Assembly (NCBI GenBank): GCA_013306675.1
Contig: JABLUY010000022.1
Location: forward strand, 160,347 to 224,346
Source of the DNA: Thraustochytrium sp. TN22
Taxonomy: Eukaryota > Sar > Bigyra > Thraustochytrida > Thraustochytriidae
Reading direction: 5' to 3'
Length of the DNA stretch: 64,000 nt
A model generated the notes under the pieces. The model was not told the origin of the DNA. It was given only the letters and a program-made list of their open reading frames with translations, and ran no database searches. Shown one piece after another: positions 46,903 through 60,913 of the stretch; the first letter of the stretch is position 1; every line of letters begins with the position of its first letter. Both the position numbers and the translations under genes were made by a program.

Positions 46903-49900
46903 TCACTTGCCGGGCTCGTCCGACCGCCAAGGGTCAAAGGAGGGCCGCTTAAAGGCGAGGGCGACCGACTTGCGCTTCGCGTCGCGGTCGGCATCTGTCT
47001 TGATGACCTTTGCATTGTTGCCGAGCGCAGGAGACGTGCTGCTCACATCACCTTCCCGCAGCTTGCGCTTCTGCTTGCCGGCGGCGTCCCGAAGCCGAGA
47101 GCATTCCCTCTCGAGGCTAGCCAGCTGCTGCTTCAGGTTCTTGGCCTCAGTGCGCGCGGCCAGTAATTTGGTTTCTACAACCTTGGCGTGTGATTCTGCA
47201 CTCGAGAGCTCCGCGCGCAAGTCCGCGACGACCGCGCGCGACCTGGCAAGTCGACCCCGCAGCTTCTCCAACTTCGCGGCGCCGGGCGCGTCCTCCGATA
47301 CCACGGCGGGCGCCGGCATCGGTGTCGGCGTCGGCGTCGGTGTCTTCTCGCGCTCCGCACACAAGGCGCGCACCTCCGCCTCGAGCACCTTGCAGCCCCG
47401 CAGCTGTTCCTCGACTAGCACGGCCAGCTCGTCGCGCTCCTTGCGCTCCGCGGCCAGCTCTTCCTGTAGCTCGCCTTGCCGCAATGCCAGCTTGTCGCGC
47501 AGCCCAACCAACTTGGCCATCTCCATGCGAAGCGAGCTCACCTCCGCCTTGGCCGCCGACACCTCGGACTGCGCACGGGACAATCGCCGCTCCACCTCGC
47601 GCCGAGCGCCCTGCTCTTGTGTGCGCTCCAGCTCCAGGGCGCGCAACTGCGTCTCGGCTTTGGAGACCTGCTCCTGCTGCTGCATTTTGTGCGAAGCAAG
47701 CAGCTGCATGCCTCCGTGCTCCAGCGCCGCACACCGGGCCCGCGCCTGCATGAGCTCCGCCTGCAACATGGAAATCACAAAAACGTGCTGCTGATTCAGG
47801 TCGTTCGGCTGTTGGTGTTGTTGTAGTTGTTGTAGATGTAGTTGTAGTTGTTGGTGTTGTTGGTGTTGGTGTTGTAGCAACTGTTGTTGTCCCAGTTGTT
47901 GTCCCAGCGGCTGCTGCGGCAGAGCAATCACAGCAGCACCTTCCGAGGCGTGGATCTCAGACTGGGCTCCTTCCGGGTCCCTGGTGGCGGCGGCGGCGAG
48001 CGACTCCCGCAACGAAGACACGAGGCCCTCCGCAGCCTCGGCGCGCGCTTTCCACTCCTCGCTCCCAGCTCCCGCGAGCTGCTTTTGAAGCGAAGCCACC
48101 TGCGCCCTGGCAGCCGCCAGCTCACTCTCGGACGCGGCCAACTTCACGCCGAGCTCCTCCTCCAGGGCGGACGACGCCGGTTCATTCGGGCGGGCCGCGG
48201 TCGCCCGCAAGGTCTCCAGCTCCAGCTCCAGAGCATTGACGCGGACGCGCCGTTCATCAGCGAGCTTGCGCACCTCCCCGTGTTGCCGCCGCAAATCAGT
48301 CACGGACGACTGGAGCTCGTCCAGACGACCCTGGCGCTCGTCCGCGAGCTTGCGGACCTCAGCGAGCTCCGTGGTCTCTTTTGCGAGCTTGGTCTCAAGC
48401 TGGGCCTCGCGCTGACGCAGCTTCGCCACGTCCCCCCTGAGCTCCGCAACATCGGTGCGCAAGGCATACGCCTCGCCCTCCACAGCAGAGAGCTCCTCGT
48501 GGTGCTTGGTCTCGAGCCGCTTCTGCAGGCTGTCCTGCAAGCTATCCTTTTCTTCGCGAGACAAAGGGCTCTCACGCGGTGCGGCAGCGGCCGCCACGAC
48601 CAGCTTGAGCGAGGCGTCAGCCAGGTCACTCAGCGCCTTGCGCACATCATCCATCGAGACGGGCTGCTCACGAGGGGAGCCTGGGCCCGCGCGCGGGGCC
48701 GCCGCCGTTGCGCAAACGGCTACCGCCCCTTCGAAAGACGGCCGCAGCCGACTCTCCAGGCTCTCTGACGTCTCCCTGGGCGGCGTCCGGCTCAGCGTGG
48801 ACGCCGTGCCAGACAACATGGCCTTGCCCAGGGCAAGGAGGGCGTTACGCGTCAGCGCCAACTCCCCGCGCACCCTCTTGGCGGCGTTGCTGGCAGCCGT
48901 GGCCTGGGCGCGCGCGTCCAACACCTCGGTGGTGAGTTCCACGATACGCGTGCCGCAGGCCTTGGCTCCGATGTCGCCGCGGCGCCGCTCCACAGACACT
49001 TCACGGCGCAGCGTGGTGGCCTCGGACCGAGCCGCCTCGAGCTCCGCGCGAAGGGCCTTGGTGCTCGTCTCCGTGATCGTGTTGCACATGCGCCAGCTCT
49101 CCACCTCCGCCATGAGGCGGACGATCTTCGTTGACATGGTGGCGAATGTGGCGGCATCCGTGGCGGCGACTGCGGCAACGTCGGCCTGCGCGCTTGGCTC
49201 GGCGTTGGCCACGGCCTTGCGCTTCTTGCTCTCTGGCGCACGCTGACTTTGCTCGATGTCCGCAGCATCATTCGAGCTCTCGCCGAGACCCCGGGCGCGA
49301 GCCACGTCCTCGCGCGCATCCGTGGTAGAAGAAGCTCCCGCCGACGAGGACGAGGCCGCCCGGGGCGTAGCATTGAGCTCCGTGACAGCTGCCTTGGTCG
49401 CGCCGTCCTCTGCATCGCTCGTCCCCTCCTTTTCTGGACGGTCGTTCTCCATGGAGTTGGCACGCTTGCGACCTCTGCCAGACTTGCCGCCAGCCGCAGG
49501 CCTGGGCGCGGCTATCCTGCCCGGGCTCAGACTCCCCGGCCCGCGGACTGAGCCTGACTCTGACCTGCGGGCGTGGGCTACCCAGACGAAGCCTTCCATT
49601 TTCCCGATTGGGGTGTGCCCCAAATCAGTGCTTACAACAGTGAAAGGCGTCGTCGACAGAGCCATGTCCAGAACTTGGCGCACCGTGTTCGGATCCTCAT
49701 TGCCAATGATTGCGAGCTGCTGCTGCAGTACCGCAAAAAAGACGGGCAATTTTTTCAGGTACTGAGAGTACTGCACGGCCGGCGCCCTCCTCTGTCGGAA
49801 GACGCAGGTCTTCACCTCATTCGCTGGCGAGTCCTGAGAGAACTCCATCTTACAGCGAACCCAGTCCGGCACCTGGCTCACTGCCTTCCTCACAAGATAG

Positions 49901-49992
49901 CCCAAATGTCCTCGCAAGGTCTTCAAATTGCTCTTGCTGAGCTTTGTCGTCCATCTCGGGGCTCTGCTGGCGCAGCTGGCCGCGCCCTGGCT

Positions 49993-50052
<60 letters not shown>

Positions 50053-50444
50053 TTCGGCCTCTTCCCCCCCCCTCGGCGTCGTCCTCGTCGGCCCGATTCT
50101 CATTATCCCGATCTGGGTCACGGTGGTAGCCACTATCCGCGTCCTCGTCACCCTCTTCTTCCTCGTCGTCCTCCTCGTCAATCTCCTTGCTTTCCCGTGC
50201 ATTACCGTTCTCCTCGTTCGCCACCATTGAGTCGTCCAGGAGGTCATTCTCGATATCGCCGTCCTCGTCCTCGTCGTCCTCGTCATCATCTTCCTCGACA
50301 TCTTCGGCAGCGGGCGCCTCTCGGCCACGGCCCGTGCTAAGCGGACGGTCCAAGCTCTCGAGCAAGTCCCCGGGCTTGCGGAACTCGCTCTGGTGAAACT
50401 TATTGTTGCTGCTGTTGTCGTTGTTGATGTTGCTGCTGCTGCTG

Positions 50445-50482
<38 letters not shown>

Positions 50483-50884
50483 CCCTGCGACGAAATGGCG
50501 GGTCCGCTGGACGCGCAGGACGCCTTTGAAAGCGCCCGTACCGCCCTTCTCCACCCAGCGCACCTCGCAGCGCTGCACCTTCATCCCGGGGCAGTACTTC
50601 TTCATGCTGGCCAACAGGAAGGCGGTGAAGCTGTCCTCATTGGAGACCACCGCGGACCCGACCAACCTTTTGCACACCACGGGCAGGCCTTGGGCCTGGA
50701 CGCGAGAGTTGCGCTGCTTCTCGCTCGGCCCAATCCGCACGGTGACCTCGTCCGTGAGTGTCAAGCCGCCGAAGACCAGAATGAGCTGCTGCCACTGACG
50801 CCACTGGCTCGTGGCCGTCCGCACCACGTAGTTCAACAGCGCGCCCAGCCGGTGCGACTGCGGGTGCATCGCCGCGCGCTCCAT
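46903..50884 (-). CDS. Coiled-coil protein with two copies of a novel domain; one-base frameshift at a G9 tract
   Basis: Two overlapping minus-strand frames make one gene of about 1,325 residues if one base is removed from the G9 tract (minus strand) at 50064-50072. The upstream frame (from MERAAMHPQSHRL) has domain copy 1 (about 10-130), a poly-Ser tract, then an Asp/Glu-rich region. Left uncorrected it continues as an RG-repeat and stops at 49850. In the shifted frame the acidic run continues as (ED)n, then domain copy 2 (about 49560-49935), a basic stretch (SGRGRKRANS; ESKKRKAVAN), long heptad coiled coils, a Gln/Leu/His-rich insert (47800-47930) and a basic tail ending FKRPSFDPWRSD. A sequencing error, a polymorphism, a real mutation or a short intron could explain the shift. 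Function is unknown; nuclear location is inferred. Confidence 0.75.
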
Positions 50885-51589
50885 CGCGCCGCACGCGCCG
50901 GCCCCGCCGCCGCCGCCGCCGCCGCCGCGCGCGCGCCGCGCCGCGCCGCGCCGCGCCGCGCCCGCAAGCCTTTTCCGCCTTTGCTGGCCGCTCAGGTCGC
51001 CGGCGGCGCCAAGGAGGTCGTTAAGCTCGCTAGCTACCACCGGCGGAGGAACCACTGGCGACCAAGTCCTCTCTCTTCTCTTCTTTCACGTCCTTGCAGG
51101 ATTCTCCTTCGGGGGTACCACGTCCTTCTGCGCCGCTAGCTAGCAGCTAGCTAGCTAGCTAGCTACCCCACCATGAACACCCGGTGTAATCACGACCGTG
51201 CTCTGTGCTGCTCGAGCTCGGCGCCGAGCTCGGCCAAGACGCAAGGGAGGAGGACGACGACGACACGGCCAGGACGTCAGGGTCACTGGCCTGCAAGTCG
51301 AGAGCCTCTACAACCCTACAGTGGCACTACACGGGGAGAGTTACTTAACGTTACAACATCATTTGCATTTCATGCACAGAGGTAGGCCGGGAGAAGGGGG
51401 AGCTGAGCCAGGTGATGTGCGCCAGAGCCTTCTTCAGCGGCAGCAGAATGGAGTGGCTCTGGGTTGAGGGTGTGAGAGCTCGCGATGGCGTGACATGGCG
51501 TGCTCGGCTCTCTCACGTGGTCTTGGAGCTATGTACTTTTCCTTGGCGCGCTCCGAAGCGTGTATACATTGGACCACCCAAGTGCCGCT
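50885..51589. other. Intergenic spacer with (GCTA)n motif
   Basis: (GCTA)n-type repeats at 51134-51165 (GCTAGCTAGCAGCTAGCTAG) lie between the start of the first coiled-coil gene and the stop of the second. CGCGCC runs occur near 50910-50960. No gene is supported. Confidence 0.55.
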
Positions 51590-53803
51590 TCAGTCGCTGG
51601 GGACGGCCTTCTCGATAAGGTCATTATACGAGGGACAGTCGCGGGGGATACGTGAGGTGACTGCAAGTGCAAGCTGACGGACACGGCTCTCCCAGGCAGA
51701 GTCGGAGTCAAAGGGAGAGGTGTCCCAGGGCGGGATGGTGATGTTGCGGTCGCATGGGCAGGCCTTGTTGTGCTCTTCGAAGGCGTGCAGAAGCTCGTTC
51801 ACCTTGTGATAGGAGGCCTTTTGAAACCTACGGCTGACCTCGTGCGGGTGGAGGGGCGACTCACGCGGGCCGTCCGTTGGCGTGTCAGAGCGCATGCGCT
51901 TCTTGAGCGCGGGCCCGCGGGCGTCCGCGTACTCCTCGCCCTGGCGCGCTTCCAACGTCCGGATCTTGGCCTCAAGCTCGCTGCACCTGAGCACGAGCGT
52001 TTCGTGCTTGCTGCCCTCGAAGCGTGCCAACTTGGCGTCGCTTTCCTTCAACGCCAGGCGCAGGGTGCGCAGCTTGGTCTTCATCTCGCTGTGCTTCTTG
52101 CCGATGATGTTCGTACTGGCCACCGCAACTTCATGCTCGTCCTTGAGTTGCAACACCTCGTCCTCGAGCTTCTCGCACTTGCGGAGGGATTCGTCGTGCT
52201 GCGCCTGCAGGCTCGCGACGCGCGCTTGAAGGCGGTCACACTCCAGGGTGAGCTCGGCCGAGCCACCCGCGCTTTTCTGCAGGTCCGCCAGCTCCTGTTT
52301 CAGCCCAGCCTGGTCCGTCCTCAGTCTGACGACCTGCTCGTGCGCCCGCTTGAACTCCTCGGCGGCTTCGTCTGCCCCGCGAATGGCGGCGTCGCGCTCG
52401 TCCTGGACCGCCGCCAGGCGCGCCAGAGTGTGCTTGAGCTCGGCCTCGGCGGCCGTAGCGCGCCCCAGCGCGGCGCCTTGCGCATCCCGCTGGGAGGCCA
52501 AGTCGGCCTTGAGGGCGTCCTGCGCTTGGCGCGCGGCGTCCCGCTCCGCCCAGGCGGCCTTGAGCGCGGCGTCCGGGTTTGTCAGGCCGGCGCCCCGGCG
52601 TAGCGACTGGCAGTCCGCCTCGAGCTTCATCTTCGCGGCCCGCTCGTTGCGCAGCTCCACAAGCAGCTGTTCGCGATCGGTGCGCTCGCGGAGGAGGACC
52701 TTGTTCTGCTCCGCGGCTGACTTGCTCGACTCCGTCTCGCGGTCCTCGAGCGCCTCGCGGCGGCGGCGCTCGCTGGCCAGCTGCAGCTTCAAGTTCTCCA
52801 CCGCCTTCTTGCTGGCTTCCAGCGACTCGCGCAGCGCGGCGGCCTCCTCCGCGGTCCTGACCGCGTCTCTGCTCTGATTTCGCAACTCTGCAAGTTCGTC
52901 TGCGAGCTGCCCCCGGCGCGCGCTGTCGCGCCGGATCTGCTCGCGCGTCTTGGTGATCTCGGCACTCTGCATATCTAAGCGGCGCACCTGCGCCTCGCTC
53001 GCGGCCGTGCGCTCGGCCAGCTCCTTGCGCAGCCGCGCGATCTCAGCGTCTGCCGCCTCCACCGCAGAAGCCGACGCGGAGCGCGCCAGGTTCATGTCTG
53101 GCATCAGGAACGGCGGCTCCGCCGGGGTCGTCATTTGCGCCGGCGGCCGATGCCCGTGAAGACTACCGCTGCCGCCGGGAATGACAGGCCGCGGCGCCGA
53201 AAACCTCGGCGGCGCCGGGCAACCCTCTTGCGGGGACTGCGAGCCGTGTGAGGCGTTCTCGGAGTCTCTCGGCGATCGCAGCGACGCCCCAGACAACGAG
53301 CGCTGCAACTTTTGCTCCCGATCCCGGACCTTGTTAAAGTCGGGCTTGACGTAGCCATCGTAACGCAACCTGATCGTGCCCGAGAAATACCCGGTCAGCT
53401 CGCTGTGCGGGCGGGGAACAAGGTCGTGCCATCTCAGATGCGCCTCTTTGATACGAATGGTGTCCATGGCTCCTCGCCTGCGCTGCTTATACTTCTCCGC
53501 GTAGATGTCTTGCAGCAGCTTGCAGGCAGCGGCCGACGTGATGGGGTCGCCGCGGCGCTCCAGCTCGATTCGCAAGAACATGCAAAAGGTGTCCAGCTTG
53601 CTCGTGCGTACGCGCAACGGCCTCTCCCGGCCGTCGTCCGCGTGGACTAGCACCAGGCCCTTTTCACACGCCTCCACGATGCCCTCCGGGTCGTCGCGCA
53701 GCTCCACCACGCACTCCCGCCACCAGTGCTTGGTCGTCCCGGCCACCACCGCGTAATGCAAAAAGCCCGACATCATCGCCCACCGGTCCTGCACCGCGCT
53801 CAT
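51590..53803 (-). CDS. Coiled-coil protein with one copy of the novel N-terminal domain
   Basis: This is a 737-residue protein. Residues about 9-155 carry the domain shared with both neighbours: SGFLHYAVVAG, then WWRECVVEL, RVRTSKLDTFCMFLRIEL, LRWHDLVPR and LTGYFSGTIRLRYDGY. A Ser/Pro/Gly linker follows (about 175-250), then about 400 residues of uninterrupted heptad coiled coil (ADAEIARLRKELAERTAASE through KLRTLRLALKESDAKLARFE). A basic patch, LKKRMRSD, precedes a compact C-terminal segment with WDTSPFDSDSAWESRVRQLA. Long homotypic coiled coils suggest dimerisation or a filament-like scaffold. No enzymatic motif is visible. It is the middle member of a head-to-tail array of three, with spacers of about 0.7 kb. 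Confidence 0.88.
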   Translation of the reverse strand: MSAVQDRWAMMSGFLHYAVVAGTTKHWWRECVVELRDDPEGIVEACEKGLVLVHADDGRERPLRVRTSKLDTFCMFLRIELERRGDPITSAAACKLLQDIYAEKYKQRRRGAMDTIRIKEAHLRWHDLVPRPHSELTGYFSGTIRLRYDGYVKPDFNKVRDREQKLQRSLSGASLRSPRDSENASHGSQSPQEGCPAPPRFSAPRPVIPGGSGSLHGHRPPAQMTTPAEPPFLMPDMNLARSASASAVEAADAEIARLRKELAERTAASEAQVRRLDMQSAEITKTREQIRRDSARRGQLADELAELRNQSRDAVRTAEEAAALRESLEASKKAVENLKLQLASERRRREALEDRETESSKSAAEQNKVLLRERTDREQLLVELRNERAAKMKLEADCQSLRRGAGLTNPDAALKAAWAERDAARQAQDALKADLASQRDAQGAALGRATAAEAELKHTLARLAAVQDERDAAIRGADEAAEEFKRAHEQVVRLRTDQAGLKQELADLQKSAGGSAELTLECDRLQARVASLQAQHDESLRKCEKLEDEVLQLKDEHEVAVASTNIIGKKHSEMKTKLRTLRLALKESDAKLARFEGSKHETLVLRCSELEAKIRTLEARQGEEYADARGPALKKRMRSDTPTDGPRESPLHPHEVSRRFQKASYHKVNELLHAFEEHNKACPCDRNITIPPWDTSPFDSDSAWESRVRQLALAVTSRIPRDCPSYNDLIEKAVPSD

Positions 53804-54543
53804 CGTGCCCTCCGCCCTCGGCCGCGCCGCCGCCCTCGCCGCCCTCGCCGCGCGCCGCCGCCGCCGCCGCCACGCGGTGGTTTGGTCGCGTGCGTGCCCC
53901 GCCGCGCCGGGGCGCCTCCGATGCCGCCGCCACCAACGCGCCGCGCCGCCGCCCCGGCTCCCGCGGGCGCCGCCGCGCCGCCGCGCCGCCGCGCCCCGCC
54001 GCGCCCCGCCGCCGCCGCGCCGCCGCCGCGCCGCGAGCGCCTCGCTCCAGCGGCGACCTCGCCCCGATTTGGTTTTGGTTTGGAATTTGAATTTTGATTC
54101 ATCGCGGTCTGTTCAAGGCTTCAAGCAGGGTCTCGCGCCGCTCCCCAGCGGCACTTGCGCGGCCGCGCGCAAGTGGGTTATCGGGCGGCCGCAAGTGGCG
54201 CGCGCGCGCGCGTGAGTGGGAGCCACGGAAGGCGAACGGTAACAACGCGAACTGCAACGTTTGTCGCGTTTGTGGAGGGTGGCTCGAGCAGGCGCAACAA
54301 GGAACTCCTGCCAATGTGGCGCTTGCGCGCGGCGCGGCGCGAGCAACTTGCACGGAGGAATCAAGGCCGAGCAAGGCAGGGAGCGGGCAAGACGGAATTC
54401 GCGAGCGAGGCTGGACGCTGGGGCAGGCGGAGATGCAGCTGCAGCTGGCCGGCCCCCGGCCTGCCGAGGGAGCTGGACCTGGAAGGGCAGCTCCGAGCGG
54501 AGAAGATAACGCCGAGGGTGGTCCCGGAGGGACCAAAGGCAAG
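53804..54543. other. Spacer between the second and third coiled-coil genes
   Basis: GCCGCC-rich DNA (53810-54060) is followed by an AT-richer patch (TTTGGTTTTGGTTTGGAATT, about 54069-54100) and an ordinary-GC segment. It probably holds the promoter of the second gene and the 3' flank of the third. No gene is supported. Confidence 0.45.
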
Positions 54544-56901
54544 TCAAATGCAGGCGGGGTCGTCGCTCGGCTTGGGAGGCGGAGGCGGCGAGTCGAACCT
54601 CACGCGCTTGGGCGGGCGCACGGCAGGGCTGCAGTTCGCACAGCGGCGAGACGCGCGCTCCTGGAGGAGCTGGCGCTCGTGCTCGCAGCGGGCGAGCTGC
54701 GTAGTGCCCAGCGCAGTGATGGCTTTCTCAAGCTTGGCCTCGAGCTCCGCCACGCGGTTCTCAAGGCGTGGAACACACGCGGCCTCGCGGCGCAAGGCTT
54801 CGCATTCCGCGGTAAGTGCGGCAACCTTGCGGCCAGTGTCCGAACCATCTTCGTGGACAGCAAGGCGCGCACGGAGCTTTCGCATCTCGTCCTTGTGCTG
54901 CTTCGCCTGGCGCGTGCTGCTCTCTTCGTAGCAGTTCATCTCCTGCTCGAAGGTCAGGCCGAGCGCGAGCTGCTCCTCCCGGGCGGCCTCTAGCGCAACG
55001 CGCAGGCTGGAGGCCTCTTTCGCGGCGGCCTCTGCTGACGCCTTGGCCTCCGTCACATCTTTCGCGAGCTGATCCGAGCGGTCTCGCATGTTGGCCACCA
55101 GGCGCTTGCGCTCGTCCATCGCGCTCTGATGTGCCGCCTCAAGTTGACTGTGGACCTCCGTCTGCTTCTCAAGCTTCTGCGTGCAGGCCTGCACCTTTGT
55201 CTTGAGCTCCTCATTCTCCTTCTTCAGGAGTGCGGCGCCTGCACGAGCAGCCACCAGCTCCCGCTCCGCCTCCTCGCGCTCTGCTCCAAGTCCTTCTAGA
55301 AGGGCCTTTTCCGCGGTGAGCGCCGCCTCGAGCTGCGTGCTCTCAGCGATGATACGCTTGAGTTCCGCCTCGAGTCGGCCCTGCAGCGATTTCTGCTCCT
55401 CGAGCTGCTGCGTGCAGGCTTGCACCTTCGTCTCGAGCTCCATGTTCTCCCTCTTTAGCTTGTTGAGGTCTGCACGCGCAGCCACTAGCTCTTGGTCCGC
55501 CGTCTCGCGCTCAGTCCCGGGTCCAGCGAGAATGGCCTTGTCTGCGATGAGTGCCCCCTCGAGCTGCTGCGTGCATACCTGCGGGTCTTGCTTTAGCTGC
55601 GCGTTCTGCTTCTTCAGCTTGGAGGCGTTGGCACGCGCGGCAGCCAAGTCTTGCTCCGCCTTGGCCTTGGGCAGTTTGCGCTCCGCTTGTGCTGCGTCTG
55701 CGTCGCGTCTTACCTCTTGGGCCTTTTCCTTGTTCTTGTTCGATTTCTTCGCAGCGTCACGGACATCCTCCTGGACCCCCTCCAGCAACGCTGCGAGCGC
55801 GCGCTTGGTTTCAGTAGCTTCGGCGAGTTTTGCGCTCGTCGCATCCAGCTTTCTCTTTATGAAAGCGTACTCTGCCCGAATGCGGTCAAGTTGCTTCTTG
55901 AGCGCGTCCAACGCGGTAGCATGCGAGGAACGCGCCACCTCCAGGTCCTTGCGGGCGATGTCCAGGTCATTCTGCAGAAACGTTGCTGCGTTCTTTTGAC
56001 TCCTGGCAGCCGTTTGCTCCGCCTGCAGCTTCCTCTGCACCGCGGCGAGCTCGTGACTAGCCTTCCTGGCTGCCTTGACGCTGGCCTTTTCAAGGGCATG
56101 CAGCTTCGTCACCAGCTCGGACTTGGAGCGCTCTTGCTCCTCGCCGCGCGCGCGGGCTTCCTCCAGCTCCTTCTGAAGACGTGCCGTGGCAAAGGTCTCG
56201 GCGGAGTTGGGAGCCTGGGCGGCCTCCTGCGATGACTCCACCGGCAGGATTGGCTGTGGAACAGGCGACGACAACTGACTGGGTGTCTGGAGCTGCGCGA
56301 GGCAGGCCGTGCGCCAATGAAGGCAATCCTGATCCTGAAAGCCTGCGCACGGAGAATGGGACGACCCGGACGACGCGCTGCCCGGCTCGCTGGGCAAGGT
56401 GTTTGGGAGCGCGAGAGCCGTGGGGCCCCAGGGAACCTTTGTGCGCTTGAGCGAAATTGTTCCATGGTAGCACCCGTAGATGAGGTCGTCTGATGTAGGA
56501 GGAGTCAAGGGATGCCAGGAGAGGCTCGTGTCCGTGACATCCAGCCGCCAACGGGGGTCCTGGATGTCTGGCTTTGTGGTCGACCGAATTGCGTCCTTGA
56601 GAATGGCCAGCAGCGAGATGCGCGAGTTGAGGCGCAGTTGCGCTTCGCGGACTGTGGCGATGTCGCAGCTGAACGCCACGAGCGCCTGCGTCATGACGCG
56701 GGTCGGCTCTGAGCATTCGTGGGGAACCTGGCTCGGCAAGCGGCAGCTGACCATTGCGAAGCCCAGTTCCGGGCATCTCATCACGTCCAGGTTGGTGGGC
56801 AGACGAATCCAGCAGTCCTCCCATCCGTGCACTGGCGAGCTGCTCATTACCAGGCACATGATGAAGTCTCCAATTCTTTCGAGGCGCGCCTCCTTCTTCA
56901 T
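54544..56901 (-). CDS. Coiled-coil protein with a diverged copy of the novel N-terminal domain
   Basis: This is a 785-residue protein. Residues about 9-160 align with the neighbours: RIGDFIMCLVM, GWEDCWIRLP, RVMTQALVAFSCD, LLAILKDAIRST, LSWHPLTPP and LIYGCYHGTISLKR. A short Ser/Pro-rich linker (about 165-240) follows, then about 500 residues of coiled coil with internal near-repeats (AARADLNKLKRENMELETKV and AARAGAALLKKENEELKTKV; QACTQQLEEQ and QACTQKLEKQ). The C-terminus has CANC, then PPKRVRFDSPPPPPKP, which combines a basic nuclear-type patch with an RVRF motif fitting the PP1-docking consensus. It is the first gene of the three-gene array in the direction of transcription. Function is unknown. 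Confidence 0.87.
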   Translation of the reverse strand: MKKEARLERIGDFIMCLVMSSSPVHGWEDCWIRLPTNLDVMRCPELGFAMVSCRLPSQVPHECSEPTRVMTQALVAFSCDIATVREAQLRLNSRISLLAILKDAIRSTTKPDIQDPRWRLDVTDTSLSWHPLTPPTSDDLIYGCYHGTISLKRTKVPWGPTALALPNTLPSEPGSASSGSSHSPCAGFQDQDCLHWRTACLAQLQTPSQLSSPVPQPILPVESSQEAAQAPNSAETFATARLQKELEEARARGEEQERSKSELVTKLHALEKASVKAARKASHELAAVQRKLQAEQTAARSQKNAATFLQNDLDIARKDLEVARSSHATALDALKKQLDRIRAEYAFIKRKLDATSAKLAEATETKRALAALLEGVQEDVRDAAKKSNKNKEKAQEVRRDADAAQAERKLPKAKAEQDLAAARANASKLKKQNAQLKQDPQVCTQQLEGALIADKAILAGPGTERETADQELVAARADLNKLKRENMELETKVQACTQQLEEQKSLQGRLEAELKRIIAESTQLEAALTAEKALLEGLGAEREEAERELVAARAGAALLKKENEELKTKVQACTQKLEKQTEVHSQLEAAHQSAMDERKRLVANMRDRSDQLAKDVTEAKASAEAAAKEASSLRVALEAAREEQLALGLTFEQEMNCYEESSTRQAKQHKDEMRKLRARLAVHEDGSDTGRKVAALTAECEALRREAACVPRLENRVAELEAKLEKAITALGTTQLARCEHERQLLQERASRRCANCSPAVRPPKRVRFDSPPPPPKPSDDPACI

Positions 56902-59560: not shown

Positions 59561-60913
59561 CTACAGGTTCTGGCGACAAACGCGGATCCACATCTGGACG
59601 TTTTGCGTGTCGGGATGGCTGGGGCCCAGCGACTCGAGCCAGATGCTCTCGGCCTGCTGAAAGAGGGCAAGCGCGGCGCTGGACTCATTACTGAGGAGGT
59701 GCACCCAGGCCATGTTGTATAGCGTGGTCGCCACTGAAGGATGCCGCGGCCCAAGGGCTTCTTGCCAAATCGATAAACTTTCCTCGTAGCACCGCACCGC
59801 CTCCTCGTTGCGGCCCTGGGCCTTGAGGACTGCACCCATGTTGTTGAGCGTGGCCGCCACGTCAGGATGCCGCGGCCCGAGGGCTTCTTGCTGAATCGAC
59901 AAACTTTCCTCGAAGCACCGCAGCGCCTCCTCGTAGCGGCCCTTGGCGTCGTACACGTCACCCATGTTGTTGAGCATGGTCGCCACTGATGGATGCCGCG
60001 GCCCGAAGGCTTCTTGCCGAATCGACAAACTTTCCCCGAAATACCGCAGCGCCTCCTCGTAGCGGCCCTGGGCTCTGTACACGCCACCCATGTTGTTGAG
60101 CATGATCGCCACTGTAGGATGCCGCGGCCCGAGGGCTTCTTGCAGAATCGACAAACTTTCCTCGTAGCCCTGCAGCGCCTCCTCGTCGCGGCCCTGAGCT
60201 CTGTACACTTCACCCATGTTGCTAAGCGACTGTGCCACTAAAGGATGCCGCGGGCCGAGGGCTTCTTGCCCAATCGACAAGCCTTCCTCGTAGCACCGCA
60301 GCGCCTCCTCGTAGCGGCCCTGGGCCTTGTGCACGCTACCCATGTTGTTGAGCGTGGTCGCCACGTCAGGATGCCGCGGCCCGAGGGCTTCTCTGTAGAT
60401 CGACAAACTTTCCTCGTAGCACCGCAGCGCCTCCTCGTAGCGGCCCTGGTTCCAGTACACGCTCCCCATGCCGACGAGCGTGGTCCCCACCTCAGGATGC
60501 CGCGGCCCGAGTTTGTCCTTGTAAATCTCCATGGCCTCGCGATAGTACTGCAAGGCGCCTTCGTAATCGGCTTGCTCACCCACCAAGAACCCGACTTGCG
60601 CAAGCACTCGTCCCATCTGGAGCATGTCGCCGCCTTGGCGCCGGGTCTCGTCGACCTTGCCGCGCGCGATGCCGGTCAGCCAGTCGCGCTGGCGGCCCTG
60701 CACCTCCGCGTTCAGCGTGGTGTATCCGTCCGGGAGCTTGTCGTTGACGGCGGCGTCGATCATGGCCTTGTCTTCGGCCTTCCAGCACTGCGCCTTGTTA
60801 CGCATGTCCATGTTGCGGTCCATGATGGTGGCGACCTGGTCCCGCGGGTTCTGGTCGTCAAAGTGCTTCCCAGCGCCCCCAACGAGGTCCGCGACGCGCC
60901 TCGCGCGCGGCAT
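59561..60913 (-). CDS. Kinesin-light-chain-type TPR protein with near-identical repeats
   Basis: This is a 450-residue protein. Residues 1-95 are non-repetitive (DQVATIMDRNMDMRNKAQCW; DGYTTLNAEVQGRQRDWLTG). Then come eight 42-residue TPR units of the KLC/TPR_10-12 type with consensus MG-VY-AQGRYEEALRCYEE followed by SLSI-QEALGPRHP-VATTLNN (about 100-445); the first and last are diverged, and the inner ones are very similar in DNA as well. Such arrays form superhelical peptide-binding surfaces and are common in fast-evolving recognition proteins. No NB-ARC, kinase or CHAT domain is present in this frame. A TAG stop lies in frame just upstream of the ATG at 60913. Confidence 0.88.
   Translation of the reverse strand: MPRARRVADLVGGAGKHFDDQNPRDQVATIMDRNMDMRNKAQCWKAEDKAMIDAAVNDKLPDGYTTLNAEVQGRQRDWLTGIARGKVDETRRQGGDMLQMGRVLAQVGFLVGEQADYEGALQYYREAMEIYKDKLGPRHPEVGTTLVGMGSVYWNQGRYEEALRCYEESLSIYREALGPRHPDVATTLNNMGSVHKAQGRYEEALRCYEEGLSIGQEALGPRHPLVAQSLSNMGEVYRAQGRDEEALQGYEESLSILQEALGPRHPTVAIMLNNMGGVYRAQGRYEEALRYFGESLSIRQEAFGPRHPSVATMLNNMGDVYDAKGRYEEALRCFEESLSIQQEALGPRHPDVAATLNNMGAVLKAQGRNEEAVRCYEESLSIWQEALGPRHPSVATTLYNMAWVHLLSNESSAALALFQQAESIWLESLGPSHPDTQNVQMWIRVCRQNL

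Follow-up and report, generated by a model that had tools for sequence, protein, structure and literature searches.

Among described proteins, we take the XRCC4/XLF/SAS-6 type to be a likeness of the proteins treated here, as it presumably combines a small globular head with a long coiled-coil rod. In the XRCC4/SAS-6 superfamily the head is a beta-sandwich and the rod is directly attached to it. The secretion and pilus ATPases of the PilB/VirB11 type carry a RecA-like ATPase domain after their N-terminal domain. Here, we describe a locus of Thraustochytrium sp. TN22 within a stretch of 64,000 nucleotides, hereafter the window (assembly GCA_013306675.1, contig JABLUY010000022.1, positions 160,347-224,346, forward strand), in which three adjacent genes, A, B, and C, occupy positions 46903-56901. 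We consider it somewhat probable that these same-strand genes form one old tandem family encoding elongated scaffold proteins. In each protein, a mixed alpha/beta head of about 130-155 residues would be joined through a flexible linker of low complexity to a long rod of heptad repeats, which ends in a short tail. Compared with the XRCC4/XLF/SAS-6 type by description only, the predicted head opens with a helix, and head and rod are set apart by a long linker of low complexity. Since the three neighbors seem to begin with a like, unrecognized folded head, they look like an old and fast-changing family.

The open reading frame (ORF) map confirmed that three consecutive genes share the minus strand. 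Gene C (54547-56901, minus strand, 785 amino acids) and gene B (51593-53803, minus strand, 737 amino acids) are each one open frame. Gene C consists of its head (56428-56901, 158 amino acids), a Pro/Gly-rich linker, a heptad-rich rod and a short tail, while gene B comprises a head (53336-53800, 155 amino acids), a linker, a heptad-rich rod and a C-terminal segment of about 90 residues. Gene A (46903-50884, minus strand) is apparently one gene in two frames, with head A1 (50486-50881, 132 amino acids), a Ser-rich and acidic linker, head A2 (49549-49950, 134 amino acids), another linker, a heptad-rich rod and a basic tail. The G+C content at codon positions 1/2/3 is 0.681/0.474/0.845 in gene B and 0.673/0.462/0.761 in gene C; all three genes have their minimum at position 2 and their maximum at position 3, a pattern they share with the acyl-CoA oxidase gene of the window.

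The heads fall into two pairs, B-C and A1-A2, with identities of 21-23% within pairs (23% in the alignment of A1 and A2). None of 2000 shuffles reached the score of B against C, and 1 to 7 of 2000 reached that of A1 against A2. Relatedness within each pair, as proposed in the original prediction, is thus shown as far as sequence comparison reaches. The same prediction held that the head is no known domain, and the library searches agree. Membership in a described domain was taken as a profile match above the curated cut-off, or by E-value for PHROGs. With HMMER filters on, Pfam listed no family for any of the four heads at E ≤ 10. NCBIfam matched only head B (best E 0.025, 15.1 bits against a cut-off of 234) and PHROGs only A1 (E 0.27), neither match being significant. 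For whole proteins, every Pfam match stayed below its cut-off and almost all concerned families of coiled coils; the strongest was that of the A rod to ATG16 (E 7.3e-05, 23.5 bits against 33.7), and the rod of C matched XRCC4_CC in the coil only and likewise below the cut-off (E 0.13, 12.8 bits against 27). No relatives were found in viral contigs with the {B,C} and {A1,A2} profiles, in bacterial and archaeal genomes with {B,C}, in phage records with B, or among sequences of the PDB with three profiles (best E 0.71); whole C matched no PDB sequence at E ≤ 0.001. Literature listings on coiled-coil gene families of labyrinthulomycetes and thraustochytrids yielded nothing on this topic.

For the head of B, the best AlphaFold2 model reached a predicted local distance difference test (pLDDT) of 78.3 and a predicted template modeling (TM) score of 0.78. 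Its predicted order is helix-strand-strand-strand-helix-helix-strand-strand, and the head of the family would accordingly read alpha-beta-beta-beta-alpha-alpha-beta-beta. The model of A1, made without B or C, is weak (pLDDT 48) and has the same order of elements. For both models the best-scoring fold rows were PAS-like N-terminal domains of PilB/PilT/GspE/VirB11-type ATPases, whose helix and strand order matches that predicted for the array head over most of its length. The head might be a known domain beyond sequence recognition, namely the PAS-like module with which pilus and secretion ATPases begin, serving here for dimerization or sensing at the tip of a coiled-coil rod. The RecA-like domain that follows it in those ATPases was not listed in the array proteins: at E ≤ 1, Pfam listed no ATPase family for B, C, head A1, or the second A frame, taken from 50031 onward. 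We regard this explanation as rather unlikely. Bolder, and clearly less probable still, is the idea of a eukaryotic head with the PAS-like N-domain fold, absent from the searched libraries, which labyrinthulomycetes attached to coiled-coil rods and amplified as a tandem array to provide the scaffold of a structure found in their lineage alone.

Other fold matches were set aside. HSP33 was Foldseek's best PDB chain for B (E 0.11, TM 0.19, root mean square deviation (rmsd) 14.5) and for A1 (E 0.003, TM 0.32, rmsd 11.5), and was rejected because both superpositions are poor. The mitoribosomal assembly chain 6sga_FR, next for A1 (E 0.038, TM 0.43, rmsd 6.5), was dismissed because of the low pLDDT of that model. 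In the viral structure library BFVD the best match for B had an E-value of 0.084, and no chains of XRCC4 or SAS-6 type were among the fold matches listed for the two models. Alba and KCTD1 domains are presumably smaller or otherwise built than the array heads, and the profiles of the two pairs matched no PDB sequence.

Whether the two pairs belong together is the central question, as four copies of one domain had been predicted originally. While the similarity within pairs supports this claim, the link between them is unproven by sequence, and several results weigh against it. The four cross-pair comparisons gave Z-scores of -0.5 to 2.8, none of them significant. Among the six-frame ORFs of the contig, the {B,C} hidden Markov model (HMM) did not list A1 or A2 up to E 20, nor did the {A1,A2} HMM list B or C. 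Aligned singly with {B,C}, A1 reached P 0.15 over 118 columns and A2 reached P 0.061 over 33 columns, and the A1 model is of low confidence, as stated above. These points would fit two unrelated head families, with B and C as a tandem pair and A1 and A2 as an internal duplication of a different domain, their resemblance being a common alpha/beta arrangement with tryptophans. However, hhalign aligned {B,C} with {A1,A2} collinearly over 113 columns (6-154 against 8-130) with a score of 18.3 (P 0.033). Only 12 of 1500 column-shuffled profiles reached this score, none of the 1500 aligned at least 100 columns, and reversed profiles scored 11.2 and 11.7. Besides, the A1 model has its order of elements and its fold neighbors in common with B although it was built without B and C, and the genes are adjacent and of like architecture. 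We judge two unrelated families to be unlikely, and all four heads are probably one domain of one family. A four-row HMM scores all four heads, but these are its own members.

HMM searches for a fifth copy covered 2257 six-frame ORFs of at least 60 amino acids (from the window, the rest of the contig in overlapping pieces, and the locus L007), where the best non-member had an E-value of 0.23, and three short-core searches of the genome to E 10 returned self matches only; both negatives leave room for copies that have diverged to the extent seen between A and B. L007, on contig C320, shows a partial match of 31% to residues 4-62 of A1 (E 0.227), which is likely due to chance and was set aside because the {A1,A2} profile gives its frame only E 2.6.

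The leftmost gene had been predicted to carry two heads. Both A1 and A2 were indeed seen; a single open frame containing both was not. A1 lies in the frame 49850-51085 and A2, together with the rod, in the frame 46903-50580, which speaks for two genes or one decaying gene and would turn the two heads in one protein into an artifact. Against this, the coding-like codon-position G+C switches straight to the second frame where it leaves the first, with the switch falling between two windows of 300 bases (50391-50092 and 50091-49792), and the acidic tract is continuous across the junction. There, where the coding frame changes, sits a run of nine G (50064-50072, minus strand), a usual site of length error or polymorphism. 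The change of frame is possibly an assembly length error, a true frameshift or a small intron. Gene A probably carries two heads, and separate or decaying genes appear improbable. Upstream of gene A, a GCTA tetranucleotide repeat was observed at 51135-51165.

Behind the heads, the predicted low-complexity linker and heptad-rich rod were found in all three proteins. Heptad periodicity was 1.61 in the rod of A (1.01 in shuffles), 1.69 in B (1.02), and 1.88 in C (1.01), values reached by fractions of 0.015, 0.042, and 0.003 of 1000 shuffles, respectively. The coiled coils first proposed are therefore supported by periodicity above that of shuffles, yet the excess is modest. The regions after the heads resemble each other beyond a null of 7-mer blocks: B and C scored 185 (null 118, standard deviation (SD) 15) and C and A 209 (null 145, SD 15, best null run 208), neither being reached in 150 runs, while the score of 152 for B and A was reached by 3 of 150. 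In the rod of C, a unit of 77 residues, or 11 heptads, is present in two adjacent copies (55102-55567, minus strand) with 42 of 77 residues identical and 76.7% DNA identity over 176 bp. This rod is thus lengthened by the unit without loss of heptad register, and another match of 104 bases (70%) suggests that a portion of an older, third unit is present as well. A Gln/His-rich low-complexity tract breaks the heptad region of the rod of A (46906-50031).

Basic tails hold for A (+9 net charge over the final 80 residues) and C (+3) but not for B (-1). The suggested nuclear role gained no support, since the counts of motifs resembling nuclear localization signals (two in A, one in B, two in C) were reached by 30%, 63%, and 31% of 2000 shuffles. 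Close to the end of protein C, an RVxF-like motif (KRVRF; 2 pattern matches, 0.037 of shuffles) is barely above chance and was not used. The last 90 or so residues of B (51593-51859) do not look like coiled coil, and a genome search with them gave no convincing relative; a match of 36% over 39 residues to locus L027 on contig C277 (E 0.834), whose frame appears kinase-like by eye, is likely due to chance.

Nine other frames of the window were scanned, four of which are single long frames matching Pfam (acyl-CoA oxidase, sulfatase, TPR protein, RAI16-like). The TPR protein (59564-60913) adjoins the array and has similar repeats of about 42 residues. Coding on the strand opposite the array was considered too: 15 plus-strand frames of at least 150 amino acids overlap the array, and the 8 that were scanned had no Pfam match at E ≤ 0.01, with codon-position G+C covering minus frames only. 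Two minus-strand frames flanking the array likewise had no match at this level. The G+C content of the window is about 68% (mean of 32 values). The genome (37.9 Mb, 453 contigs) encodes a PfaA-type polyunsaturated fatty acid synthase, typical of thraustochytrids, in a frame of 3044 amino acids (2539.7 bits against a family cut-off of 1010.1), in keeping with a stramenopile origin.

Taken together, the array is a real case of divergent tandem paralogues of the coiled-coil scaffold type with a head absent from the searched libraries. Concerning function, we infer that the rods most likely dimerize or oligomerize and that the heads may bind a partner or one another, so that the proteins would bridge or space other components. 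The array by itself opens no long-standing question. Should the four heads prove to be a single domain, they would represent an undescribed protein domain with four very divergent copies in one genome, enough to start a profile with which stramenopile genomes can be searched. If true, the array would also exemplify a coiled-coil rod lengthened by in-register duplication of 11 heptads.
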